Assembly (NCBI RefSeq): GCF_000769405.2
Contig: NZ_CP053444.1
Location: 90,226-154,225, forward strand
Length of the DNA: 64,000 bases
Source of the DNA: Rhizobium brockwellii
GTDB taxonomy: Bacteria; Pseudomonadota; Alphaproteobacteria; Rhizobiales; Rhizobiaceae
Direction of reading: 5' to 3'
Below are positions 4,524 to 63,508 of the stretch, piece after piece. The translations under genes and the position numbers were made by a program. Each line of letters begins with the position of its first letter. The stretch's first letter is position 1. Under the pieces are notes generated by a model, which was not told the DNA's origin, did no database searches, and saw only the letters and a list, made by a program, of their open reading frames with translations.

Positions 4524-5114
4524 ATGTCTGCTGGAGTGCGGTGGAAAATAACATGGGAAAATGATCTCGAACCGTCGGATCATGCGGAACTGTCTGAATT
4601 TTTCCGAGCAACCTATGGTCCGACTGGCGAATTCAATGCCAAACCTTTTGAGACTGGCAGAAGCTGGGCAGGTGCGAGGCCGGAACGCCGGGCAATTGCT
4701 TACGATTCAAAAGGCGTAGCCAGCCACATGGGTTTGCTGCGTCGTTTCATAAAAGTCGGCGACACCGATTTGCTGGTCGCCGAACTTGGCTTGTATGGAG
4801 TGCGCCCGGATCTGGAGGGGCTTGGCATCGCTCACTCGATCCGCGCTTTGGCTCCGGCGTTGCAGGAACTGGCGGTGCCGTTCGCGTTCGGCACTGTCCG
4901 ACATGCTATGCGGAACCACGTAGAGAGATTTTGCCGAGACGGTATTTCCAATATCGTCACGGGGGTTCGTGTACGCTCGACGCTTCCAGATGTGCTGCCC
5001 GATATGCCCTCCACGCGCACCGAAGACGTGCTCGTCCTGGTATTTCCGATAGGACGACCGATGAGCGAGTGGCCCTCCGGATCATTGATCGAACGAAACG
5101 GGTGCGAGCTATGA
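4524..5114 (+). CDS. nodA: NodA, Nod-factor N-acyltransferase
   Basis: A 196-residue protein, the exact usual NodA length. NodA moves the fatty acyl group from an acyl carrier (NodF or the housekeeping ACP) to the free amine left by NodB on the chitooligosaccharide. The sequence carries the family hallmarks [39 protein letters not shown] and [20 protein letters not shown] precedes the ATG. It is the first gene of the nod-box operon and its stop overlaps the nodB start (ATGA at 5111-5114). Confidence 0.97.
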
Positions 5115-5761
5115 AGCGGCGCTCTTATATAAGCGAAGTACCGTTTGATGAGGCCGGGAGCGACGATCGTAGCATCTACTTGACGTTCGACGACGGTCCC
5201 AATCCGGAATGCACTGGCCAGATTCTGGATGTGCTCGCCGAACACCGCGTACCAGCCACCTTTTTCGTCCTCGGTGCCTATGTCAAAGACCATCCCGATC
5301 TCGTCCGCCGTGTTGCGGCAGAAGGTCACTTGGTCGGCAATCACACGATGACCCACCCCGATCTTACGGCCTGTGACTCGGAGGCAATCGAACGAGAGAT
5401 AAAGGATACAAACGAAGCCATTGTTTCGGCGTGTCCCCAAGTTGCGGTTCAACATATACGAGCGCCATACGGCGCTTGGAACGCGGATGTCCTTTCAAGA
5501 TCCATGAACGCCGGACTTCGACCTGTTCACTGGTCGATAGACCCGAGAGACTGGTCCTGTCCCGGAGTCGATTCTATCGTTGACGCGGTACTCGCTGCTG
5601 CTCGGCCAGGTGCAATCGTGCTTTTGCACGACGGTTGCCCACCTGATGAGGTCGGGAACTGCAAGCTCACCGGGCTGCGTGATCAAACACTTTCGGCGCT
5701 CTTGGCAATTATCCCGGCACTGCATAGCCGTGGATTTTCCCTTCGTTCACTTCCCCAGTAA
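5111..5761 (+). CDS. nodB: NodB, chitooligosaccharide deacetylase
   Basis: A 216-residue polysaccharide deacetylase (carbohydrate esterase 4 / NodB homology domain) that removes the N-acetyl group from the non-reducing end of the Nod-factor backbone. The metal-binding TFDDGPNP motif is near residue 25, HTMTHPDL supplies the metal histidines, and RAPYGAWN and VLLHDGC complete the active site. I chose the ATG at 5111, which overlaps the nodA stop by 4 nt; the same frame stays open further upstream but only as an antisense-like extension inside nodA. Confidence 0.96.
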
Positions 5762-5781
5762 AACTAAATCGACGAGAAACC

Positions 5782-7062
5782 ATGACCTTGCTTGAAACAA
5801 CCAGCATCGCCGCCGTCTCGCTTTATGGACTGCTTTCCTCCGCCTATAGGAGTGTACAGGTCCTTCATGCTCGGCAAACTCTCAAGTCGGAAACAGCGGA
5901 AAACACCGTCGAAGAGAGCTCGTTGCCAAGTGTGGACATCATTGTGCCTTCATTTAACGAGAGCCCGCGCGTCCTGTCCGATTGCCTGGCATCCCTCGCC
6001 AACCAGGACTATCCGGGGGTATTGCGCGTTGTTGTGGTTGACGACGGTTCCAGAAACCGTGACGCGGTGGTGGCCGAGCAGATCGTCTATGCGGGTGACG
6101 CGAGATTTGAATTCATCATGCTGCCCAGGAATGTCGGAAAGCGCAAAGCGCAAATCGCCGCCATTTCCCGATCATCCGGGGACCTCATCCTGAATGTGGA
6201 TTCAGACACCACTCTCGCCAGCGATGTTGTTTCCAAACTCAGTCAGAAAATGCGCGATCCGGCGGTCGGTGCGGTGATGGGGCAGCTTGTCGCAAGCAAT
6301 CAGAACGACTCGTGGCTGACCCGATTGATCGACATGGAGTACTGGCTGGCCTGCAATGAGGAGCGCGCCGCGCAGGGACGCTTCGGTGCCGTGATGTGTT
6401 GCTGTGGACCCTGTGCCATGTACCGCCGGTCCGCCTTCGTCTTGCTTCTTGATCAATACGAGACGCAGCTTTATCGGGGAAAGCCGAGTGACTTTGGCGA
6501 GGACCGTCATCTGACCATTCTAATGCTAAGCGCCGGCTTCCGTACCGAATATGTCCCAAGCGCCATCGCCGCAACCGTCGTTCCTGACGGTTTGGCTGCC
6601 TATCTGCGCCAGCAACTGCGTTGGGCACGGAGTACATTCCGAGATACCCTGCTCGGACTTCACCTCCTCCGTGGCATGAACTGGTATCTGACTTTGGACG
6701 TCGTCGGGCAGAATGCCGGCCCTCTTCTGCTCGCTTTGTCCGTACTGGCGGGTCTTGCACAGTTTGCCTTGGCGGGTTCAGTGCCCTGGTGGACGATAGG
6801 AACGATTGGATCATTGACACTGATACGATGCGGCGTAGCTGCTTATCGTGCCAGGCAGCTTAGATTTGTTGGCTTCTCGCTGCACACGCTTGTGAACGTC
6901 TTTCTATTACTTCCTGTGAAAGCTTATGCGCTCTGTACGTTGTCCAACAGTGATTGGCTGTCGCGCGGCTCCGGAGTCAACGCTTCAGGTGCCGTTCTAA
7001 AGCAGAAGGCCTCCGAAACTCCAATGCTTGCGGCCCCTGAAGCTACTTTCAGCGGCGAATGA
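5782..7062 (+). CDS. nodC: NodC, chitooligosaccharide synthase
   Basis: A 426-residue membrane glycosyltransferase (GT2) that polymerises UDP-GlcNAc into the Nod-factor backbone. It has an N-terminal hydrophobic segment, the [10 protein letters not shown] start of the catalytic domain near residue 50, the DSD metal motif in LILNVDSDT, the GEDRHLT acceptor motif, the [10 protein letters not shown] (QxxRW) motif, and three C-terminal membrane segments. It is 20 bp after nodB and overlaps the open frame of nodI by 4 nt. Confidence 0.96.
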
Positions 7063-7100
7063 TCGCTGTGTCGCCGCATCTTGCAAACCTCAGGAATCAC

Positions 7101-8129
7101 ATGAACGGTCAATCGGATCTACAGGCAGCTGTGGCTGAGACGCTCCGCCGACAAGGCAACCTACCATGCATTTCGATTTCAGAAGCAATCGCTCCCCAAG
7201 TAGGAGCGATATCTTCTATTGCGATCGAACTCGTCGGCGTTACCAAATCATATCGTGGGAAGGCCGTGGTTGACGGATTGTCTTTCAACATTGGGTCAGG
7301 AGAATGCTTTGGCCTATTAGGCCCAAACGGCGCCGGAAAAAGCACAATCAGCCGTATGATTCTCGGGATGACGTCGCCCGATGCGGGCAATATTTCGGTG
7401 CTCGGAGTGCAGGTACCCCGGCAGGCTCGCTCGGCGCGCGCCCGTATCGGTGTCGTTTCTCAGTTCGACAATCTCGACATGGAGTTCACCGTTAGAGAAA
7501 ACCTGTTTGTCTACGGCCGGTACTTCCGCATGAAACGGCGGGAGATCGAAGCGATCGTGCCCTCGCTGCTGGAATTTGCGCGGCTTGAAAACAAGGCAGA
7601 TACAAGGGTGGCCGATCTTTCTGGAGGCATGAAGCGGCGCCTATCATTGGCGCGCGCGCTGATCAATGACCCGCAGATCCTCATACTAGATGAACCGACC
7701 ACCGGCCTCGACCCGCACGCACGCCACCTGATCTGGGAGCGTTTGCGATCGCTGTTGGCGCAAGGCAAGACGATCCTTTTGACGACCCACATCATGGAAG
7801 AGGCAGAACGCTTATGTGACCGGCTGTGCGTGCTCGAAGGTGGAGTTAAGATAGCCGAAGGTCGCCCCTTTGACCTGATAAAGGAGCAGATCGGCTGCCC
7901 CGTCATCGAGATCTATGGCGGAGACCCGCAGGAGATTAGCCTTTTGATCAAGCCGAACGCACGGCGCATCGAAATCAGTGGCGAGACCCTGTTCTGCTAC
8001 ACCCCCGACCCAGAACAAGTTCGGGCGCGACTGCGCGGACACTGGGGTCTGCGCCTCCTGGAGCGGCCGCCAAACTTGGAGGACGTCTTCTTGCGGTTAA
8101 CCGGACGCGAGATGGGGAAGTACCAATGA
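7101..8129 (+). CDS. nodI: NodI, ABC transporter ATPase for Nod-factor export
   Basis: The ATP-binding subunit that acts with NodJ to export lipochitooligosaccharides. It shows Walker A (GPNGAGKST), the ABC signature LSGGMKRR, Walker B ([12 protein letters not shown]) and the H-loop [10 protein letters not shown] place the start at the ATG at 7101 (342 residues), preceded by AGGA; an ATG at 7059 that overlaps the nodC stop would add 14 residues and cannot be excluded. Either way the N-terminus before the core (near [12 protein letters not shown]) is longer than in typical R. leguminosarum NodI. It overlaps nodJ by 4 nt. Confidence 0.93.
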
Positions 8130-8914
8130 GTGGAGATTCCGTAACGGCATTGCCGGGCGGCAGCTTGAACTGGATTGCTGTCTGGCGTCGAAATTACCTT
8201 GCATGGAAAAAGGCGGCGCTGGCGTCGCTTCTGGGTCATTTGGCCGAACCTTTGATCTACCTTTTTGGCCTTGGCGCTGGCTTGGGCGTGATGGTGGGCC
8301 GCGTTGGGGGCGTTTCCTATACTGCTTTCCTGGCAGCTGGAATGGTCGCGACAAGTGCGATGACGGCTGCAACGTTTGAGACGATTTACGCAGCTTTCGG
8401 CCGGATGGAGGGTCAGCGCACTTGGGAAGCGATGCTCTACACACAGCTGAGGCTAGGCGATATTGTTCTCGGTGAGATGGCTTGGGCGGCGACGAAGGCC
8501 GCTTTGGCGGGTGCCGGCATAGGCGTGGTCGCCGCCGCTCTAGGATACACGCAGTGGCTGTCGCTGCTATATGCGCTTCCGGTCATCGCGCTGACGGGTT
8601 TGGCCTTTGCAAGCCTTGGGATGGTCGTCACAGCCCTTGCTCCGAGCTATGATTATTTCATCTTTTATCAGACGCTTGTTATCACACCTATATTGTTCCT
8701 CTCGGGTGCCGTCTTTCCAGTCGATCAACTGCCAATTGTCTTCCAGACGGCTGCGCGATTTCTTCCTCTGTCGCATTCGATCGACCTCATACGTCCGATA
8801 ATGCTCGGTCACCCCGTGGTGGATGTCTGCCTGCACGTCGGCGCACTTTGCATCTACATCGTCATCCCATTCTTTTTATCGACAGCCTTGCTGCGGCGCC
8901 GACTATTGCGCTGA
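8126..8914 (+). CDS. nodJ: NodJ, ABC-2 type permease for Nod-factor export
   Basis: A 262-residue integral membrane protein of the ABC-2 family (NodJ), partner of NodI. Six hydrophobic segments can be picked out, and the [22 protein letters not shown] segment is characteristic of NodJ. It is the last gene of the nodABCIJ operon. No nodT is found downstream, where insertion-sequence DNA begins. Confidence 0.95.
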
Positions 8915-9087
8915 AGATCATTAATGCGCGCAGGCCGACTGGGATCCGTCGTTTTGGCTTTTCTGCCAGGCAAGCCCCTTGCTTCTGATCCGGGAGGTGC
9001 TCACTAGGCTCAGGACCTATCAAATCGCTTGCATCGGCCTCCCTTCCTTTACTGATCAGAATGAAAAGGAGACGCTGCGAGCCTATT
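8915..9087. other. Spacer between nodJ and IS66 remnant
   Basis: No gene seen. It ends where an IS66-like terminal sequence begins (GTAAGCG at 9088). Confidence 0.4.
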
Positions 9088-9348
9088 GTAAGCGCGATTT
9101 TCCATGCGCATTGACGGCTGCGGCACCGCTGAAGCGCACTCGTACCGGGAGAGATACGCGGCTCTGTCGGGCCGCAGAGGTTTTGGAGAAGTTGAACGGT
9201 AGCAAGTCGCCGACGTCGGCCTCTTCGCCTCGCTGTGGCAACCCGGTGAGCACATCGCGCAGCCAAGTGAGTGGATCGACGCCACAGGCGCGGCAAGTCG
9301 GCATCAAACTATAGATCACTGGCTCGCCTTGGCTCCGTCAGCGGTGTC
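9088..9348 (-). mobile_element. IS66-family end with truncated TnpC 3' part
   Basis: The GTAAGCG start at 9088 resembles IS66 terminal repeats. The minus-strand frame 9083-9319 encodes the C-terminal end of an IS66 transposase (YSLMPTCRACGVDPLTWLRDVL), which is closely similar to the end of the complete TnpC at 9922. The DNA at 9175-9344 aligns by eye with 9928-10100. Upstream homology then stops, so this is a duplicated end and not an active gene. Confidence 0.75.
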
Positions 9349-9440
9349 GGGCACACATATTACTGACCGGCGAATATCTCTGGCTGAAGGGAGCAAAGGC
9401 TTAGAGTGTCATTTCCGCCCCCAGCCGGAACCAACCCCTT

Positions 9441-9794
9441 TTATCGGATCGACATGCGGTAGCAGTGCTCTATCATCCGTCCCCTAAGGTTAAGATCGGT
9501 CATGCCAAATCTATCGACGTAGCCCAGCCCCAGGGCGAGTATTCCCTGCCCGGCGACGTTGCCCGGGTTATGGCTGTAGTGAGCTACGGCCATTTCCTCT
9601 TCCTTCGTATAAGTGGCAGGGCCTTGCAGCAGAGAGACAATCGACTGGCCTCGGGCATTCAGCAATCCGGCTTCGCTTGCCAATCCGAGTTCAACCAATT
9701 TGGCTTTTGTCTCTTTGAAGGTTGACGGCGTCGTCTTTTGAAAATGTTCAAGCACGGCCTTAACTTCTTCGTCGGTGAAATTGGCATGCTCCAT
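9441..9794 (-). CDS. Hypothetical 117-residue protein inside the IS66 region
   Basis: I do not recognise this protein. It starts MEHANFTDEEVKAVLEHFQKT, is mostly charged and helical, and ends RMIEHCYRMSIR; there is no signal peptide or membrane segment. It has one good-looking start (ATG at 9794, with GGA a few bases upstream). It sits between two copies of an IS66 TnpC 3' end, so it may be a passenger gene trapped by IS66 rearrangement. Confidence 0.55.
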   Translation of the reverse strand: MEHANFTDEEVKAVLEHFQKTTPSTFKETKAKLVELGLASEAGLLNARGQSIVSLLQGPATYTKEEEMAVAHYSHNPGNVAGQGILALGLGYVDRFGMTDLNLRGRMIEHCYRMSIR

Positions 9795-9921
9795 GGAATG
9801 ATCCTCTCAAAACAGGAAATCCGTAAAACCCTGTATAGAACCAGGGATATACCCGTGTCTCCTCCGAAAGCCAGACCCTGGCTGCCCAGCTCGAGGCACT
9901 CCAACAACGTGACCTGTTGGC

Positions 9922-11511
9922 TTAGGCCGCAGAGGTTTTGGAGAGGTTGAACGGCAGCAGGTCGCCGATGTCGGCCGCTTCTTCGCGCTGCGGCAACTCA
10001 GTGAGCACGTGGCGCAGCCAGGTGAGCGGGTCGACGCCACAGGCGCGGCAGGTCAGCATCAAACTGTAGATCACGGCGCTGGCCTTGGCTCCGTCAGCGG
10101 TGTCGCTGAACAGCCACGATTTCCTGCCGGTGGCAAAAACTCTGATCTCGCGTTCCAGAATGTTGTTATCGATCGGCATCCTGCCGTCGCTGGTATAGCG
10201 CGTTAGATAATCCCATTGGTTCAGGGTGTAGGACACTGCATCACCGAGCTTGGTATCCGGCACGACCTTCGGCGCGATATTGTCGAGCCAAGTCTTCAGA
10301 GCGTTCAGGACAGGCAAGCTGTGTTGTTGCCGGAAGCGGCGAATGCAGTCTGCTTTCGTCTCGCCGGCATCTGGGGTTTTGTCTCTTGCCTGCTTTTCGA
10401 TCCGGTAGAGCTGCTCGAAGAACCGGAGTGCCTGTTCCGGCGGTCCGCCTCCGTTCTTCCTGGTTTTGAGAGCCTCGACGAAGCGCCGCCGTGAATGGGC
10501 GATGCATCCGACATGGGTTGCGCCATGTAATGTGCGCCAGGCGGTGTAGCCATCGGTCACCAATATGCCGCGGTAGTCACCGAGAAAGGCCTGCGGGTGG
10601 ACCTGGCCGCGGCCCGGTTGATAATCGAGAAGCACGATTGGCTCCTCACTATTCTCGCCGCTGCGATATGCCCACATGTACGACGTGCTGGTGGCTTCCT
10701 TGTCCTTTTCCTTCAGCACTTGAACTGTCGTCTCGTCACCATGAATGAGAGGCTGCGACTGAAGCCGCAATCTCAGCGCATCGTAGATGCGATGCAGGTG
10801 CCTCTCGCTCGAGCCGATCACCCAGTGCGCGAGAGCGCCCCGGCTGATCGGAACACCGGCCCGTTCGAATGTTTGCGCCACGCGGTAGAGCGGCGTGCCG
10901 TCGACGTATTTGTGGACGAGTGTGAAGGCCAGTGTCGAGGCAGTGGCAATGCTGCCCGGCAAGGGCTGCGGCGGCATCGGTGCGATCACCACAGGCGTGT
11001 TGATCCCGGTGCGGTCGCAATGGCGGCAGGCGTATTTGAACCGCACATTCTGCAGAACCTTTGCCTTGACCTCGATATGGAGCTGTTCGCTAACGGCCTC
11101 GCCCATGCGATGCATTTGACTGTCGCAGCAAGGGCAAGTTTTTTGATCGTCGGGTAGATCGTATTCGACACGCTCGCCCGGCAGGTCTTCCGGCAGAGGT
11201 CTGCGGCCCCGCTTTTTACGCGCGGCGCTATCGACTGCTGGCAGGCCTGTATCCGTAAGATCGGCGACGTCGTCGCCATAATCACGATCATCCTCGTCTG
11301 CGGCCTCTTCGGCCTCGTTGAAGATGCGATCGATGTGCTTTTCGCTGCGGGGGGCAAAACGATGGAGCTTTGCGAGTACCAGCTCTTCTTCCAGCTTGGC
11401 GACCCGCTGCGAGAGCGCTTCCTTCTCGGCTTTGAGCGCGGCGATTTCGGCGGCACTTGCCGCCAACTGCGCCATCAGCTCTGCAACATCAGGTTCGCCG
11501 GTTTGGGTCAT
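9922..11511 (-). CDS. tnpC: IS66-family transposase TnpC (Orf3)
   Basis: A 529-residue IS66 transposase. It has an N-terminal leucine-rich coiled coil (ALKAEKEALSQRVAKLEEELVLAKLHRF), a Cys-rich zinc-binding segment (CPCCDSQMH ... CRHCDRT), and the DDE-type catalytic core with LIHGDETTVQVL and VTDGYTAW, ending in the IDNNILEREIR region. The protein ends abruptly after SKTSAA at exactly the point where it stops matching the other TnpC copy at 9175, so the real 3' end of the element is missing here. Confidence 0.93.
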   Translation of the reverse strand: MTQTGEPDVAELMAQLAASAAEIAALKAEKEALSQRVAKLEEELVLAKLHRFAPRSEKHIDRIFNEAEEAADEDDRDYGDDVADLTDTGLPAVDSAARKKRGRRPLPEDLPGERVEYDLPDDQKTCPCCDSQMHRMGEAVSEQLHIEVKAKVLQNVRFKYACRHCDRTGINTPVVIAPMPPQPLPGSIATASTLAFTLVHKYVDGTPLYRVAQTFERAGVPISRGALAHWVIGSSERHLHRIYDALRLRLQSQPLIHGDETTVQVLKEKDKEATSTSYMWAYRSGENSEEPIVLLDYQPGRGQVHPQAFLGDYRGILVTDGYTAWRTLHGATHVGCIAHSRRRFVEALKTRKNGGGPPEQALRFFEQLYRIEKQARDKTPDAGETKADCIRRFRQQHSLPVLNALKTWLDNIAPKVVPDTKLGDAVSYTLNQWDYLTRYTSDGRMPIDNNILEREIRVFATGRKSWLFSDTADGAKASAVIYSLMLTCRACGVDPLTWLRHVLTELPQREEAADIGDLLPFNLSKTSAA

Positions 11512-11563
11512 CCCAGTTTTGAATCTGAACCGCGTCGCCGCGTCAACAGATCAACACGCCACC

Positions 11564-56657: not shown

Positions 56658-57830
56658 ATGTCCGCATCGGTTGTATTCTTTCCCGTAGCAAACGGGGATA
56701 TGACATTAATCACATTGGACAACGGTCAGACGATCCTGATCGACATCAAAATCCGCGCGGCGGCCGACGACGAGGACGACGAGACCTACGATGTCGCCTC
56801 TGACCTCAAAGATCGCCTTAAGACGGACTCCGAGGGCCGCTCCTACGTTGACTCGTTTCTACTCTCTCATCCGGATCAGGATCACATCACCGGTCTTGAA
56901 AACCATTTCTATCTGGGACCGCCGGCGGACTATCCTAAAGATAGCGGCTTGATTTTCATACGGGAAATGTGGTCATCCCCGCTTGTCTTCCGCCGCGCCA
57001 GCACGCAGCACGTCCTGTGCGCGGATGCCAAGGCCTGGGCGAAAGAGGCCCGCCGCCGGGTCCAAAGGTTCAAGGACGACAAATTCGGGACCGTTGATGG
57101 TGATCGCATCCTGATCATGGGTAAGGATAAAGACGGCAAGACCGACGAGATCACGGACATCGTGGTCGAACAGGGAGAGCTGATTACATCCGCGAACCGC
57201 GGCAGCTCCGGTCAGTTCACCGGGCGCCTGCTTGCGCCCATGTTGGTGGCTGAAGACGATGAGTTGGTCGCCTTGCTCGAGAAAAACAACTCTTCAGTCA
57301 TCATCAATTTCTCCCTCACTGGTGGCGGGAATGCCGATAAGTGTCGGTTTCTTACCGGTGGTGACGCTGGCGTCGCAATTTGGGAGCGGCTCTGGCAGAA
57401 CCATAAGGACAGTGACCCCGACTGGTTTACCTACGATCTTATGCAGGCGCCGCACCACTGCTCATGGCGTACTTTGAGCTATGACCGATGGTCGGAGATG
57501 GGCGAGAAGGTCAAGGTGTGTGAAGACGCTCGCAGTGCTCTTGGACAGGCCAAGTTCGGCGCGACTATCGTGGCCAGCTGTAAGCCCATTCTCAAAGACG
57601 ACAGTGACCCGCCGCACGAACGCGCAAAACGGGAATACGTCTCGATACTTAAGCCAGACACCGTGAAGGGCGAGTTCATCTGCACATCCGAATACACGAA
57701 CGCCAATGACCGACCTCTTGAGTTTACTGTGACGTTCTCGGGCGTGTCAAAGAAGCTTCGGGCGGCAGCTGCGGCGGCCACGATCGTTGGGGTATCAGCC
57801 GTCGCTTCGAGTGCCCGCGGACACGGTTGA
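56658..57830 (+). CDS. Metallo-beta-lactamase-fold protein of a ubiquitin-like module
   Basis: A 390-residue MBL-fold protein of the ComEC/Rec2-like branch. Metal ligands are visible as SHPDQDH (H71, D73, D75, H76), the LTGGDAG aspartate (D236) and APHHCS (H266). I choose the ATG at 56658 with GGAGG upstream; the frame starts at a GTG at 56646. The C-terminus has a short hydrophobic stretch (about residues 369-385) and ends ARGHG. It overlaps the next gene by 1 nt (TGATG), so the two are coupled. Its substrate is unknown. Confidence 0.85.
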   Translation: MSASVVFFPVANGDMTLITLDNGQTILIDIKIRAAADDEDDETYDVASDLKDRLKTDSEGRSYVDSFLLSHPDQDHITGLENHFYLGPPADYPKDSGLIFIREMWSSPLVFRRASTQHVLCADAKAWAKEARRRVQRFKDDKFGTVDGDRILIMGKDKDGKTDEITDIVVEQGELITSANRGSSGQFTGRLLAPMLVAEDDELVALLEKNNSSVIINFSLTGGGNADKCRFLTGGDAGVAIWERLWQNHKDSDPDWFTYDLMQAPHHCSWRTLSYDRWSEMGEKVKVCEDARSALGQAKFGATIVASCKPILKDDSDPPHERAKREYVSILKPDTVKGEFICTSEYTNANDRPLEFTVTFSGVSKKLRAAAAAATIVGVSAVASSARGHG

Positions 57831-60100
57831 TGTCAGCTGGGAAGTCCGAGCTCGTGCAACACGCGGAGCATCTGCTCCGTGTGGTTCGACGCCACCCTCA
57901 AGTCCGCAGCGCGGAGCTAGTGATTGCCGAAGCGGATGAGTGCCGTGTCGCCATCATGTTCGACGTGGAAATGCCGTTCGACGTGAAAGCGCGCGGTCTT
58001 TCCACGACGGGTGTTCGAACTCTTGAGGAGGTCGAGATTGTCATCCGTGCCGGTTACCCTTGGAAAAGTCCGACGATCTATCTGCGTCAGGATTTTCCGC
58101 GGGATCTTCCGCATCTTCAGCCGTCCCCCGCGGATGCATTGCCCCGCCCTTGCCTGGTGGACGGGTCGCAGGACGAGTTCTTTAGCCATTTTGCCCTGAT
58201 AGAATCAGGGATCATTGGCTTGCTCGAACAGCTTGCGTCCTGGCTCGCGAATGCCGCGGTAGATTCGCTAATCAATCCCGCTCAAGGCTGGGAACCGGCC
58301 CTTCGTGCCGGGCTCGCCGACACGCTCATCGTCGATAGTGAATTTCTTGAGGAAAAGACGTCCGCAGAAGGTGCTTGGAGGAGCTACCGTACCTATTATC
58401 TCCGCTCACTAGGGAAAACGGGACCAGGCGCATTTACCTTCTTGGAAGCCGGTACGGAGCTCGCAAGCCTTTTCTCGAAGACGGATATGACCCTTTTTCA
58501 GAGTCAACGGCTCTCGAAAATTAACGGCATTTCCGGTACTTCGGTTATGGCATTCATCACACCCGACCCCGATGACGACGGCAACCCGCGGATTAACCGC
58601 CGATATTTGCCGGAAACCGTGACTAATCTCACTCAGCTGCACGCTCGCGCCAAGGCGCTTGGTTGCGGCCGTCATTTCCGCGAGTTTATGGAAACGCTGG
58701 TGAAGAACTGGGGCATTTATCAATTCGAAACCGCCATTCCCATCGCGGTGATCTTCGCTGCCCGCCGGCCTTTCCATCTCATAGGCTCAGTCTCAAACCT
58801 CGAGCATCTCCCCTACCTGTTCGAAATCTATCCGCGACCCGGCCGGACGACCCTGTGGGACGAACCAGGGGAGGATACTGTTAAGCCCACTCGGCTGCTC
58901 TCCAGGGCGACCCCCAAGCTCCTCCGCAAGCTTTCCCCCGTAACGTCGGCGGCGCCCACGGCGATGATCGGGGCCGGCAGCGTTGGATCGAAAGCTGCGC
59001 TTCATCTTGCCCGCGCTGGCGTGCCTGTCACCGCGATCACAGATACATTGGTCCTGATGCCCCACAATATGGCCCGGCATGCCTTGGTCAGGCCATCCTT
59101 GGGCTCGGGAAAAGCGGAAGAGCTCGCGACAGAACTCAAGGTGCTCGGTCAGACGCCCGCAGTGTGTTTCGAGGACGCCGTGGAGCAACTACGTTCGGCA
59201 GACGGTCGGCAGACGCTCGCGCCGGAAAATACCGAGCGCGTGCTCAATTCCACCGCATCCTTACTGGTGCGCGAGGCACTGTCCATCGTACCAAAGGATG
59301 CCTTCCCGCCACGGATCTCCGAGATTGCGCTGTTCGGCCGGGGAGACGGTGCCTTCCTGCTGCAGGAAGGCACCGCCAGGAATCCTACGCTCGCCGATCT
59401 TCTGACCGAGATTAGTGCGCACGCGACAACAGCCGAGCGCAACTTGCTCTTCAACCCTGAACATGGGTTGACCGAAGTTCAGATCGGCCAGGGATGCGGC
59501 TCCCTAACGATGCCCATGACGGACGCGCGGCTGTCCGCGATGACTGCCGCGGCCACCGAGATCTTCCTAGGCCGAGAACCGGAACAATCGTCGGGAACCT
59601 ACGCGATCGGCCATCGGCTTGCTGGCGATCCCACCACGCATTGGCGTGCCATCGAAGTTGGGCCGTTCATCGAGGTTCCTGTAGAGGGCCGCAACGGTTG
59701 GCAAGTCCGACTTTCCCCTTCAGTCGATCGTCGGATCCGTGAAGAGGTTGCCTTGTATTCGCATGTGGAAACTGGTGGACTTCTCATCGGTACGACGAGC
59801 GCCCGGTGCAAGACCATTACAGTGGTTGACCTCCTTCCCGCTCCTGAAGACAGCCGACGCACAGCAGGCCTGTTTGAACTCGGGACTAAGGGCTTGAAAA
59901 AGGCGATCAAGGTCCGTCATCGTGCCAGTGGCGGAAGCCTGTTTGACGTAGGAACGTGGCACAGCCACCTCGCCGATATGGGTCCTTCCTGCCTCGATAG
60001 AAAGACCGCGGCGCAGCTGGCAGGCGAACGCCCCCCTCCCAGCGTGCTGCTGATCATTACTCCGAACCGGTATCACGCCCTGGTTCACCCGGAGGTCTAA
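57830..60100 (+). CDS. E2-E1-JAB triple-fusion protein (ubiquitin-like conjugation)
   Basis: A 756-residue protein with three domains. Residues 1-150 resemble a bacterial E2-like fold, with a candidate catalytic Cys at 108 (DLPHL ... LPRPCLVDG). Residues about 375-580 are an E1/ThiF-like adenylating domain: GAGSVGSKAA (380-389) is the nucleotide loop, D405, N413 and R416 follow, and C556 (QGCGSLT) is a candidate thioester Cys. Residues about 635-756 are a JAB/JAMM peptidase: E647, H711-S-H713, S720 and D723 form the metal motif. E2, E1 and JAB fusions are known from bacterial ubiquitin-like systems. Confidence 0.86.
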   Translation: MSAGKSELVQHAEHLLRVVRRHPQVRSAELVIAEADECRVAIMFDVEMPFDVKARGLSTTGVRTLEEVEIVIRAGYPWKSPTIYLRQDFPRDLPHLQPSPADALPRPCLVDGSQDEFFSHFALIESGIIGLLEQLASWLANAAVDSLINPAQGWEPALRAGLADTLIVDSEFLEEKTSAEGAWRSYRTYYLRSLGKTGPGAFTFLEAGTELASLFSKTDMTLFQSQRLSKINGISGTSVMAFITPDPDDDGNPRINRRYLPETVTNLTQLHARAKALGCGRHFREFMETLVKNWGIYQFETAIPIAVIFAARRPFHLIGSVSNLEHLPYLFEIYPRPGRTTLWDEPGEDTVKPTRLLSRATPKLLRKLSPVTSAAPTAMIGAGSVGSKAALHLARAGVPVTAITDTLVLMPHNMARHALVRPSLGSGKAEELATELKVLGQTPAVCFEDAVEQLRSADGRQTLAPENTERVLNSTASLLVREALSIVPKDAFPPRISEIALFGRGDGAFLLQEGTARNPTLADLLTEISAHATTAERNLLFNPEHGLTEVQIGQGCGSLTMPMTDARLSAMTAAATEIFLGREPEQSSGTYAIGHRLAGDPTTHWRAIEVGPFIEVPVEGRNGWQVRLSPSVDRRIREEVALYSHVETGGLLIGTTSARCKTITVVDLLPAPEDSRRTAGLFELGTKGLKKAIKVRHRASGGSLFDVGTWHSHLADMGPSCLDRKTAAQLAGERPPPSVLLIITPNRYHALVHPEV

Positions 60101-60789
60101 GCAGGCAACGAGTGGTGATAGCTCGTAAGGACCTGACGGCCATAAGCCGCATAGTATTTGAGGAAGCGACCGTACATCCCGATAGCGACAGCCGCAGCAC
60201 CGAGAGCGAGCCAGCCGTCCTTCGGCGCAGAACCTTGCCAATATTTGTAGGTCAGCATTCCGGTAGCCAACAGGGCGACAAAGCAGATGTTTCGACAAAA
60301 CCCGTAACTGTTCTGGAAGCTCTCGAGCCTTGTCACGGTATCGGGACTCGCCCGCGCGGCGGGAAAAGCAACCTGGAAGATGTGCTCACCATCCAGGTTT
60401 GCCATACTCATACCCAGCTTGTCGGCCGCTCCCGACTTAATACGATCTCGAACTTTCGTCGCAAGCGGACTGTATTCCCGATTGGCAAAGAGCCACGCCG
60501 CTACGTGCTCGCGCCAACGGCGTTTCCGCAAACCAAGGGCGATTTCCGTGGGCGAACGGAAAATTATGCGGGCAATCACGAATTCAACGAGTCCTGATGA
60601 TGGAGCGGCACAGATCTGGCCGGCGATGTACGAGACAACGGTCCAGAAAATGATCTGCACCACCGTCCATTCAGTCCTGTTGACCAAGACAGCGTCAGCA
60701 AAACAATAGTCGATGCTGGCCACTAGCAGCATGCCTGATGCCACGAAAGCGTAGAACTCGTAGTTAGTGAGTGGGAACCAGTCACGCAT
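60097..60789 (-). CDS. Multi-pass membrane protein convergent to the E2-E1-JAB gene
   Basis: About 230 residues from the ATG at 60789 (MRDWFPLTNYEF); a start at 60816 adds nine. Hydrophobic segments are at about residues 8-28, 40-60, 165-185 and 195-215, so two pairs of helices flank a soluble middle. The family is unrecognised. Its stop overlaps that of the E2-E1-JAB gene, so the genes are convergent. It could be a membrane effector of the module, or an unrelated neighbour. Confidence 0.75.
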   Translation of the reverse strand: MRDWFPLTNYEFYAFVASGMLLVASIDYCFADAVLVNRTEWTVVQIIFWTVVSYIAGQICAAPSSGLVEFVIARIIFRSPTEIALGLRKRRWREHVAAWLFANREYSPLATKVRDRIKSGAADKLGMSMANLDGEHIFQVAFPAARASPDTVTRLESFQNSYGFCRNICFVALLATGMLTYKYWQGSAPKDGWLALGAAAVAIGMYGRFLKYYAAYGRQVLTSYHHSLPA

Positions 60790-60816
60790 CTTCAGCACCC
60801 TAACCAGCGCAGGCAA

Positions 60817-61029
60817 GTACGAACGACGAGCCTTTCAAACTCTCATTCATATAGCTCGTTCATTGTTAAATCGCGAGGCAGAATTAGGATGAGGATCACA
60901 GCATGATTTTGATTCACCAGCAACAATTTGGAGTGATCGAGGCCATTTGCCCCGCACATGATCACCAGACGAGACGGCTGGCTGCCCCTTTCACCGGCAA
61001 TGCTCCAAATCGAGATGTAACCACTTTCC
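60817..61029. other. Spacer before the DUF1612-type gene
   Basis: No gene recognised. Confidence 0.35.
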
Positions 61030-62160
61030 TTACATAACCCCCCACGCCCGAAACCTCCCCCTCCCCGTCATCTCCCGCAAGCCGAGTTCCAAAACGATCC
61101 GCCGCGCCGCCTGCGGCGTCACCTCGAGCGTCTTCGCCACCATTTTTGCCGACACCAACGGTTTGGCCATCACCAACTCAACCAGCTCCGGCAGTTTTGA
61201 CGACGTCCGCCGACCATCCAGTTTTCGCTCCAATAGGGTGCGGGCCAGCGCCAACCGGTCATGTTCTTTCAGGCCGATCTCGGCGGTCGCCAAAAATCCG
61301 TGGGCGATGGCGAGCAGCCGCGTCTCCCGATCACGCTGCCGGCGGCGATCCACGGGAATGGTTTTCAGGCCGAGGTTGATGGCAGCGAGATGAGCACCTG
61401 ACGTGATGCCCGCCTGGCGCAGGATCGAGGCGGCAAGCAGCCGACCGAGCCACGGCGCATGCTGAAGGACGGCGATCTCGTTCCAGGCATCAAGGACGGT
61501 GATCGCCTGCAGCACCGCTGGCAGGTTTTCCGCCTGGCGCACCACGCCCCGCCATTCGTCCAGCCTGGAATCCTCGTCCCAGTCGAGATCATACACCAGC
61601 GGATCTTTTTCCGCCGCGCCGCCACGGCCGGGCCGGGTCGCGTTTGCGAGCGCAGCTTCGGAGCGGGCCAGCACCGCATCGATGGCGGCATAGTCGATGC
61701 CGGGAAGATTTTCGATGTCGTCGACATCTTCCCCCTCCCCTTCCGGATCTTTTACGACCGCGCGCCGGATGACACCTACCGTGTCTGCCGCTTCACTGCC
61801 GGACAACGTGATCTCCGAGGTCTGCCGGAGCGTCCGAAGCCCGTCGGCGGAAAAAGCCCAGTCGGGTTGCTGGCCAGAAATGCGCCGGCGGGTTCGCAGC
61901 ACGTCGCGGGCGATTGTCAGCTCATGGGTGGGTGTGCGAATATCGCGGGTGGCGTCATGGAGGACGAGGTCTTCGAGGTGGACGAGTTCGCCGTCTATCC
62001 AGAGCGAGGCGCAGGCGTCGGTGAATTGGGATCGCTCGATGAAGCCCGCGCCGACCGGTGAGCGGGCGATCCGCTCGTCCAGACGCGCGAGAGCGACACC
62101 GGCGTCGAAAGCCGGTCGCATGAGTGGTGTCATGCTGATTTTTTTGAGTTCGTAAGCCAT
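61030..62160 (-). CDS. DUF1612/HTH-type plasmid protein
   Basis: About 376 residues ([21 protein letters not shown]; the frame starts at 62169). It belongs to the rhizobial plasmid family with a C-terminal HTH ([53 protein letters not shown]). Members lie near plasmid replication or transfer loci. A truncated copy is at 41046-41285. It is divergent from a tyrosine recombinase across a region with a perfect 12-bp inverted repeat, which may be its operator. Confidence 0.8.
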
Positions 62161-62245
62161 TGAAATCATGGTAAATGATTTCTTAAAAGAACTCTATCTA
62201 AATATTGTGGTTCCTCACATGGTATGGTCGCTAGCTGTGGCGATA

Positions 62246-62274
62246 ACCATCGATAAGTACCTCTTATCGATGGT
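62246..62274. repeat. Perfect 12-bp inverted repeat between divergent genes
   Basis: ACCATCGATAAG (62246-62257) and CTTATCGATGGT (62263-62274) with a 5-nt spacer TACCT. It lies 86 bp from both the DUF1612-type start and the recombinase GTG. It may be an operator for the HTH protein, or a recombinase site. Confidence 0.8.
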
Positions 62275-62359
62275 AGATTGATTTCAGGGCGCAAATCAGC
62301 GAGAATCGCAGCAGATCACGGTCCTGGAGACCGCTGAAACCCGCTATTGTGGAGCCTCC

Positions 62360-63508
62360 GTGGCAAAACCCAAGACATCACTGACCGCCGTCAAGCGTCG
62401 CGCCGAGGAGCTCGACACGATCGCCGCCGTGCTGCCGCTGGAACGCCGCGACGAACTCGCCGAGCTGCTCACCGACCACGACGTCGAGACGCTGCGCCAT
62501 CTCGTCAACCAGGGCATGGGCGACAACACCCTTCGCGCCCTGACCTCGGATCTCGCCTATCTTGAAGCCTGGGGACTGGCAGCGACCGGACGATCGCTGC
62601 CCTGGCCGGCGCCCGAAGCGTTGCTGCTGAAGTTCGTCGCGCATCATCTTTGGGATCCGCAGCACCGGGAAACCGACCCTGATCATGGAATGCCTGTAAA
62701 TGTCGACGACAACCTTCGAAGCCAGGGGTTTCTCAAGTCCGTCGGCCCGCACGCGCCAGCCACCGTGCGCCGGCGGCTGGCGAACTGGTCGACGCTGAGC
62801 AAATGGCGCGGTTTTGACGGCGCCTTCGCCTCCCCTGCCCTCAAGTCGGCCATCCGCCTTGCGGTTCGCGCCGTCCCCCGGACGCGGGGTCGCAAGAGTG
62901 CCAAGGCGGTGACTGGTGACGTGCTGGCAAGACTGCTGGCGACCTGCGCGAGCGACAGTCTGCGCGATCTGCGGGACCGGGCGATGCTGATGGTCGCCTT
63001 TGCCTCAGGTGGCCGCCGGCGCAGCGAGATTGCCGGCCTTCGTGTTGAGCAGCTGAGCCCTGAGACTCCGATCGAGATGCCGGACGGGCCTCCCCTCCCC
63101 TCTCTCGCCATTCACCTTGGCCGCACCAAGACGACCACCGGCGAGCAGGACGATATCGTCTATCTGACCGGTCGGCCGGTAGAGGCGCTCATCGCCTGGC
63201 TGCAGGCTGCGAAGATCGACAATGGCAGTGTGTTTCGGGCGATCGGGCGATGGGGGACTGTTTCGCGACGGGCGATCGATCCGCAGTCGGTCAACGCGAT
63301 CATCAAGCAGCGGGTGGAACTGGCTGGATTAGACCGTGGGGAGTTTTCGGCGCACGGGCTGCGGTCGGGCTACCTCACCGAAGCTGCCAATCGCGGCATC
63401 CCCCTTCCAGAGGCGATGGAACAGTCGCGACATCGGTCGGTGCAGCAGGCATCGAGCTACTACAATGACGCCACGCGTCGGAGCGGACGGGCTGCACGTA
63501 TGCTTTGA
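62360..63508 (+). CDS. Tyrosine recombinase/integrase
   Basis: A 382-residue tyrosine recombinase with a GTG start (GGAG 5 nt upstream). Catalytic residues are visible: Arg in ASGGRRRSEIAGL, His-x-x-Arg in SAHGLRSGYL, His in SRHRSVQQA and the Tyr in SYYNDATRR. The N-terminal core-binding domain runs to about residue 175. Such genes lie near plasmid loci in rhizobia and may resolve or integrate DNA. Confidence 0.92.
   Translation: MAKPKTSLTAVKRRAEELDTIAAVLPLERRDELAELLTDHDVETLRHLVNQGMGDNTLRALTSDLAYLEAWGLAATGRSLPWPAPEALLLKFVAHHLWDPQHRETDPDHGMPVNVDDNLRSQGFLKSVGPHAPATVRRRLANWSTLSKWRGFDGAFASPALKSAIRLAVRAVPRTRGRKSAKAVTGDVLARLLATCASDSLRDLRDRAMLMVAFASGGRRRSEIAGLRVEQLSPETPIEMPDGPPLPSLAIHLGRTKTTTGEQDDIVYLTGRPVEALIAWLQAAKIDNGSVFRAIGRWGTVSRRAIDPQSVNAIIKQRVELAGLDRGEFSAHGLRSGYLTEAANRGIPLPEAMEQSRHRSVQQASSYYNDATRRSGRAARML

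Follow-up and report, generated by a model that had tools for sequence, protein, structure and literature searches.

What do bacterial ubiquitin-activating (E1), ubiquitin-conjugating (E2) and JAB-type enzymes conjugate when no gene for a ubiquitin-like protein (Ubl) can be recognised beside them? The question is raised by a 64,000-nucleotide stretch of Rhizobium brockwellii DNA (the window), the terminal part of contig 6 of a 7.1-Mb genome, in which all three enzymes are fused in one protein encoded next to a metallo-β-lactamase (MBL)-fold protein. Bil and Bub, mobile immune operons, have E1, E2 and JAB-type enzymes in common with this locus and carry Ubl genes, whereas none is recognised in the window. 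Our comparison with related loci suggests that the MBL protein is itself probably the missing Ubl. Together with a convergently encoded membrane protein, the two would form a three-component 6A-MBL immune operon working like type II CBASS (cyclic oligonucleotide-based antiphage signalling system), with the MBL protein in place of the cyclase, a reading to which we give a probability of roughly 60% on sequence evidence. Bacterial ubiquitin-like operons of this kind are known, though they have received little study; the present one lies on a plasmid of a clover-nodule bacterium.

The E2-E1-JAB fusion and operon type 6a

An initial annotation, made from the sequence alone, had proposed the triple fusion beside an MBL protein, and profile searches for the E2, ThiF and JAB domains agree with it. 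Pfam Prok-E2_A matches the fusion protein above cut-off (1.9e-19), and ThiF (2.2e-5, 24.2 bits, cut-off 28.1) and Prok-JAB (3.8e-5, 24 bits, cut-off 25) fall just under theirs. Both NCBIfam models are passed, 6A-MBL_cap2_3 (NF058523) by the fusion (3.4e-161, 538.1 bits, cut-off 320) and 6A-MBL_enzyme (NF058524) by the MBL protein (1.7e-127, 425.4 bits, cut-off 220). The E1 part also matches the solved Cap2 structures 7tsq, 7tsx and 7to3 (best E value 1.1e-5). Across 47 aligned fusion proteins, counting that of the window and an identical copy (L072; related loci bear L numbers), the candidate residues named beforehand are all kept: C108, the three glycines of GAGSVGSK, D405, C556, E647, H711, H713 and D723 are invariant in 47/47, as are H95 of the E2 domain, R416, K428 and S720. 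With its predicted active sites conserved throughout, the enzyme set appears to be functional. Loci first taken to encode E1-JAB alone, where tblastn had matched half of the protein, proved to contain open frames of ~740-810 residues that align over the whole fusion.

The same two genes, with the same fusion order, make up operon type 6a, in which an E2-E1-JAB fusion lies next to a specialised MBL gene, usually as a unit of two genes (Iyer, Burroughs and Aravind, 2006; PMC1779556); the initial annotation had alluded to a comparative-genomic precedent of this kind. NCBIfam pairs its two models as an "anti-phage 6A-MBL system", a name whose basis was not seen and which did not occur in the literature searched; we infer that this system and type 6a are the same. 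The kind of operon has therefore been described and modelled before. Set against the 2006 text, what is added here is a conserved glycine tail on the MBL protein, a third gene that is exchanged between one for a protein with four predicted transmembrane segments (4-TM) and one for a patatin, and a minimal form. None of these was found in the literature searched, and the source paper of the NCBIfam models may contain some of them.

A conserved glycine at or near the C-terminus of the MBL protein

The initial annotation had offered three ideas for the missing modifier: the C-terminus of a host protein, the MBL protein, which ends ARGHG, or a Ubl encoded elsewhere. Comparison favours the MBL tail, and a Ubl from elsewhere is not needed. 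In an alignment of 46 tails, G390 is present in 46/46 and H389 in 31/46, with variable linker columns, and in all 48 6A MBL proteins scored the glycine is the last residue or lies 1-7 residues before it, mostly as HG. These sets derive from 52 MBL open reading frames (ORFs; L062 included), from which L049, L070, L071 and L087 (truncated, broken or fragmentary), L072 (the window copy) and L060 (tail unalignable, its last such motif being AAG, 8 residues before the end) were left out to give 46; L118 and L119 were then added.

The motif [HAFYQ]G occurs within the last 12 residues of 48/48 6A MBL proteins and of 0/16 control MBL proteins. Its background frequency in the same segment is 44 among 284 flanking mechanical ORFs of the same loci (HG in 6) and 11 among the 47 fusion proteins (HG in 5). 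Among the 32 proteins of less than 70% identity, all have glycine in that column, whereas 40 tail shuffles with realignment reach at most 22 (mean 10.6); HG is found in 20/32, and in no more than 4/32 in those shuffles. Thirteen of the controls come from loci without an intact E2-E1-JAB gene, where 3.7-12.7 kb were read (12 without a tblastn match to any fusion, L120 with only a broken JAB piece), and three are second MBL proteins of L043, L080 and L082. MBL genes that neighbour a 4-TM or patatin gene were preferred as the source of controls to matches of the Avs1a profile: among the 10 ORF ends listed for the latter (two from one ORF), only L088, L089 and L090 were judged convincing, and none of these three has an end with such a motif.

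Two observations concern single tails. That of the L043 protein, PRAGTHGLR, carries both the RAG and the HG form, its nearest relatives, L118 and L119, having RAG. At L087 (Sinorhizobium meliloti pMl3, 5834-6540), a remnant keeps only the MBL tail and a piece of E2, and the MBL fragment still ends ARGHG; other S. meliloti plasmids give similar 20% matches.

A tail of this kind has a parallel in type II CBASS, where Cap2 activates the cyclase via its C-terminal Gly/Ala, Cap3 can reverse the reaction, and conservation of the C-terminal Gly/Ala of cGAS is reported to be limited to operons where Cap2 and Cap3 are both full-length (PMC10097602). In one such system PspA is the target of conjugation (PMC11153139). 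The window has a CBASS-type E1-E2 protein and a JAB isopeptidase, in fused form. Common to both systems are the E1-E2 and JAB enzymes, patatin or membrane proteins as effectors or candidate effectors, and WYL regulators; a C-terminal glycine on a putative partner without a β-grasp fold would be a further parallel. In contrast to type II CBASS, 6A operons lack a cyclase, their JAB domain is fused to E2-E1, and the glycine, conserved in 48/48, is borne by the MBL protein and often followed by a short extension. Since the 6A MBL protein shares this signature of the type II CBASS cyclase, the MBL as modifier appears to be the simplest reading. Any residues beyond the glycine would have to be removed, and the natural candidate for that step is the fused JAMM domain.

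Ubl precursors and isopeptide bonds between glycine and lysine are the substrates of JAMM enzymes, a specificity that counts against a different use of the same tail. In that alternative, the MBL protein would be an effector nuclease controlled through proteolysis by the JAB domain, its glycine would mark a site for cleavage or sorting, and E2-E1 would have another substrate. In its favour, the ComEC MBL domain is the best fold match of the MBL protein (which has no Pfam match above cut-off), 28/48 tails extend past the glycine, and in other defence systems MBL hydrolases are made as proenzymes that proteolytic cleavage switches on (PMC12799240). However, 20/46 aligned tails stop exactly at the glycine, with nothing left to cut, and the E1 and E2 cysteines are invariant, so we regard protease control as quite unlikely.

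If instead a classical β-grasp Ubl encoded elsewhere were the modifier, the MBL protein would be its target or a mere neighbour. The reliance of Bil and Bub on Ubl genes speaks for such a protein, as do two additional places in the window genome that the E1 part of the fusion profile matches more weakly. In line with the initial annotation, which recognised no Ubl gene, no Ubl domain was found in the three operon proteins or in 8 neighbouring window ORFs; relatives were not systematically searched. Genome-wide searches with Multi_ubiq and Prok_Ub found nothing, but their controls were silent as well and the result is uninformative, so that absence from the genome is not shown; ThiS/MoaD-type Ubls were not part of the search. 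An outside Ubl would leave the invariant MBL glycine unexplained, and mobile operons would rarely be expected to rely on an outside modifier. We consider this explanation decidedly improbable.

An exchangeable third gene

The initial annotation recognised neither a cyclase nor an effector. The first part stands, but the convergent membrane gene is, judging by a census of relatives, probably an effector-like third component. Among 48 distinct loci with a full-length fusion, 34 have a 4-TM gene and 11 a patatin gene, so that the survey of neighbours finds such a gene in 45/48; at the other three, a transposase gene follows (L005), an unrelated 2-TM gene lies behind a WYL regulator (L118), or nothing was recognised (L085). 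The 4-TM gene is upstream in L119, L082 and L071. Pfam Patatin matches the three third genes scanned (1.6e-17, 5.2e-18 and 1.6e-21). The 4-TM proteins, ~205-290 residues as longest open frames, have hydrophobic hairpins flanking a soluble part; those tested match no Pfam or NCBIfam family above cut-off. The window protein matches weakly the PADLOC profile of Csx27, a CRISPR type VI-B membrane protein (9.6e-4, residues 17-197), which among relatives gives 1.2e-4 for L105, 3.6e-3 for L047 and nothing at 0.01 for L106. CBASS effectors include the phospholipase CapV (PMC10097602) and membrane-disrupting proteins (PMC11153139), and PADLOC profiles of CBASS effectors match the Burkholderia glumae 4-TM protein weakly (2TM effector, 9.6e-4) and the L084 patatin at 1.2e-3 (phospholipase effector). 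A second, ComEC-like MBL gene (MBL2) lies right behind the fusion gene in L043 and L082 and is the fourth gene in L080.

On a tree of the 48 fusion proteins, 6 changes are needed to account for the labels 4-TM, patatin and MBL2; well-supported branches imply no fewer than 4 for the 4-TM label, and a scheme of six effector states needs 13. The labels were fixed before 4-TM genes were found also in L043 and L071, and L058 was labelled patatin before this was proved, as it later was. Because the labels change so often, the third gene is, on this tree, exchanged repeatedly, like CBASS effectors. Profile searches divide the 4-TM proteins into four subtypes (g1-g4), among which g3 and g4 are linked at 1.4e-4 and 2.4e-4. 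One g3 protein is detected at 7.2e-6 with a profile built jointly from g1 and g2, and hhalign gives probabilities of 57% for g1-g3, 88% for joint (g1+g2)-g3 and 24% for g1-g4.

The window fusion nests (support 99/98) among eight proteins, seven with a g1 third gene and one (L005) with none; unlike these nearest relatives, it is accompanied by an inverted third gene of subtype g4. On other plasmids, the closest g4 protein is that of Rhizobium oryzihabitans, which is 65% identical and whose gene is convergent with an MBL gene with the same 4-nucleotide overlap, which suggests that the window effector gene derives from a minimal module in convergent orientation. A g4 homologue lies downstream of the fusion and co-directional with it in L068, so the orientation of g4 is not fixed.

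The C-terminus of the effector was also considered as the modifier and rejected, the C-termini of the 4-TM proteins being variable. In L118 (Escherichia coli plasmid pKMi029_1, 4478-5864), the protein after the WYL gene has 172 residues and two hydrophobic segments, matches neither Pfam nor PADLOC, and occupies the 4-TM position of L082 and L119; it is possibly another effector type.

A putative minimal form without the fusion gene

A 4-TM gene stands beside an MBL gene, with no fusion gene found, in Variovorax (L099), Microvirga (L100), Bradyrhizobium (L101), Rhodococcus (L102), Curtobacterium (L104), R. oryzihabitans (L105), Blastomonas (L106) and Lactiplantibacillus (L121), and in Staphylococcus (L103) an MBL-like stretch lies near a 4-TM gene. 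Searching plasmid records with two 4-TM queries gave 45 and 5 matches, of which L099-L106 are the eight examined besides records already read as 6A loci; L121 was reached via an MBL query. Over 394 genomes, the g1 profile has 11 matches, of which 7 lie beside a fusion gene (3 of them having supplied rows of the profile) and 4 beside an MBL gene; none of these four genomes belongs to the 19 in which a 6A MBL protein is matched. Such pairs look like a minimal form of the system. The MBL proteins of L100 and L102, which lack E2-E1-JAB, correspond to PDC-M48B, the MBL component of a PADLOC defence candidate; its profile matches them and the second MBL proteins of L080 and L082 at 1e-110 to 7e-153, whereas the window MBL protein matches only weakly (9.5e-6). 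None of the 4-TM proteins tested matches a PDC-M48 component.

We think it slightly better than an even chance that 6A-MBL is a second system, after that of cGAS/CD-NTase, whose modifier is itself an enzyme without a β-grasp fold, matured by JAMM in many of its members, and that the conjugation module was added to an older unit of MBL protein and effector. E2-E1-JAB would then have joined an MBL and 4-TM or patatin unit as Cap2-Cap3 joined minimal CBASS. If true, a second, unrelated modifier would make E1-E2-JAB cassettes portable regulators, attachable to any enzyme with the right tail, and the two-gene form would be a simpler setting in which to study the link between MBL protein and effector.

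At L120 (3649-4909), a JAB remnant broken into two frames immediately precedes an MBL gene of the minimal type, and a patatin gene lies close by; the site may represent a 6A locus in decay or conversion.

A proposed mechanism and the points against it

The operon could work as follows. First, the E1 domain would adenylate the C-terminal G390 of the MBL protein and pass it via C556 to C108 of the E2 domain, which would join it covalently to a target. Second, the JAMM domain could reverse this conjugation and, in those relatives with 1-7 residues beyond the glycine, would first trim them off. Conjugation would prime or place the MBL hydrolase, by fold closest to the ComEC nuclease domain. Finally, the partner membrane protein, 4-TM here and patatin phospholipase elsewhere, would be the killing effector, and the activated cell would damage its own membrane and so stop a phage or a competing plasmid. 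The glycine tail makes the modifier claim open to single-residue testing, and the swapped third genes name the likely killing step.

Several points weigh against this model. The model has to postulate trimming for the 28 tails that continue beyond the glycine. Glycine alone is universal, the preceding residue being mostly H but otherwise A, F, Y or Q; the motif set was taken from the 6A tails before scoring; these tails are rich in Ala and Gly; and 5/16 control MBL proteins have some glycine in their last 8 residues. As all 16 controls are distantly related to the 6A MBL protein, their lack of the tail could reflect ancestry rather than the absence of a need for it. As to the third gene, 3/48 loci have none that was recognised, and in the window it lies on the opposite strand and is therefore not co-transcribed with the operon. 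The 4-TM layout comes from a hydropathy count, and with g1-g2 (1.2%) and g2-g4 (0.1%) not detecting each other by hhalign, a single 4-TM family is unproven; the structure model of the window protein is poor (mean predicted local distance difference test score 49.4) and unfit for a fold search. No known nucleotide signal was seen for the step from MBL protein to effector: the three proteins lack a cGAS/DncV-like nucleotidyltransferase (CD-NTase) domain, PADLOC cyclase profiles do not match any of five neighbouring proteins, and no CD-NTase is annotated within 8 kb in the incomplete gene table of the identical plasmid pRL9b2.

Distribution, regulation and the question of function

The window MBL protein matches 244/72,556 plasmid records at 1e-5, counted as MBL matches and not each checked for a fusion gene. 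NF058524 is found in 8/398 genomes of the phylum sample, 19/394 of the family, 5/385 of the class and 1/48 of another class; the first three samples contain the window genome, and some genomes recur. Sequence closely similar to one 6A operon is present in 31/5,426 complete E. coli genomes, covering 80% or more of that operon in 29. Phage records gave no match to the MBL protein of the E. coli relative, and among viral contigs no relative of the MBL protein was confirmed.

This distribution bears on whether the system is anti-phage at all. The 4-TM or patatin protein could be a toxin restrained by the MBL and conjugation enzymes in a plasmid-conflict or stress module, as the plasmid matches, the silence of the phage records, and the position of the operon near repABC and an integrase in pRL9b2 would allow. 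Bub operons, with similar enzymes, have not been shown to protect, according to one report (PMC13373217). On the other side, the NCBIfam family name says anti-phage, on a basis not seen, and restriction systems adjoin the operon in L074 and L083. We hold such a module to be unlikely and retain the CBASS-like immune operon as the preferred interpretation.

A WYL gene lies divergently upstream in 6/15 annotated plasmid 6A loci (L078, L079, L082, L084, L118 and L119) and a helix-turn-helix gene in two (L074 and L077, the latter with an ImmA/IrrE peptidase as well); on the window's plasmid neither is annotated upstream. A nucleotidyltransferase-domain protein is paired with the WYL regulator upstream of two 6A operons (L078, 2957-4588; L079, 2944-4578), and that of L078 matches NTP_transf_2 at 3.5e-5.

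Locus layout and genomic setting

The features of the locus are listed in Table 1. As the initial annotation had described, the MBL and fusion genes overlap by 1 nucleotide in TGATG (57828-57832), and the fusion gene converges with the membrane gene. The 3' ends of these last two share 4 nucleotides (60097-60100). The membrane protein had been started at 60816, but the start at 60789 (MRDWFPLTNYEF, 230 residues) is more likely, since it is annotated so in pRL9b2 and relatives L105 and L106 begin likewise.

Table 1. Features of the 6A-MBL locus, in window coordinates
Feature	Coordinates	Strand	Remark
MBL-fold protein (6A-MBL_enzyme), 390 aa, tail ...SSARGHG	56658..57830	+	proposed conjugated modifier via G390
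MBL C-terminal tail, ~residues 366-390, variable Ala-rich linker then HG	57753..57827	+	alignment, shuffle control
E2-E1-JAB fusion (6A-MBL_cap2_3), 756 aa from ATG	57830..60100	+	NF058523, 538.1 bits
Codon of E2 candidate catalytic Cys108	58151..58153	+	C in 47/47
Codon of E1 candidate catalytic Cys556	59495..59497	+	C in 47/47
JAB/JAMM domain (residues 632-744; E647, H711, H713, D723)	59723..60061	+	Prok-JAB match under cut-off; residues 47/47
Membrane protein, predicted 4-TM layout, subtype g4, proposed effector	60097..60789	-	convergent with fusion gene

A scan for promoters gave 3 candidate sites against 1.6 expected, and one for terminators a single candidate against 3.9; neither was used. 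Three Rhizobium leguminosarum/johnstonii plasmids encode a fusion protein 100% identical to that of the window. The mobile plasmid setting suspected from the start holds for pRL9b2, which is typed as conjugative and in which the operon is followed by an RHE_PE00001 family gene, the integrase and repABC. The corresponding downstream protein in the window (61030-62169, minus strand) consists of DUF1612 and HTH_13; the PADLOC SoFic profile matches it weakly and only at the C-terminal end. At L078 (R. leguminosarum pCC283b_5, 4784-11518, compared with window 56658-63508), a different 6A operon, its fusion protein 34% identical, likewise adjoins an RHE_PE00001 family gene and a site-specific integrase; the two sites are apparently one plasmid hotspot that accepts different 6A systems.

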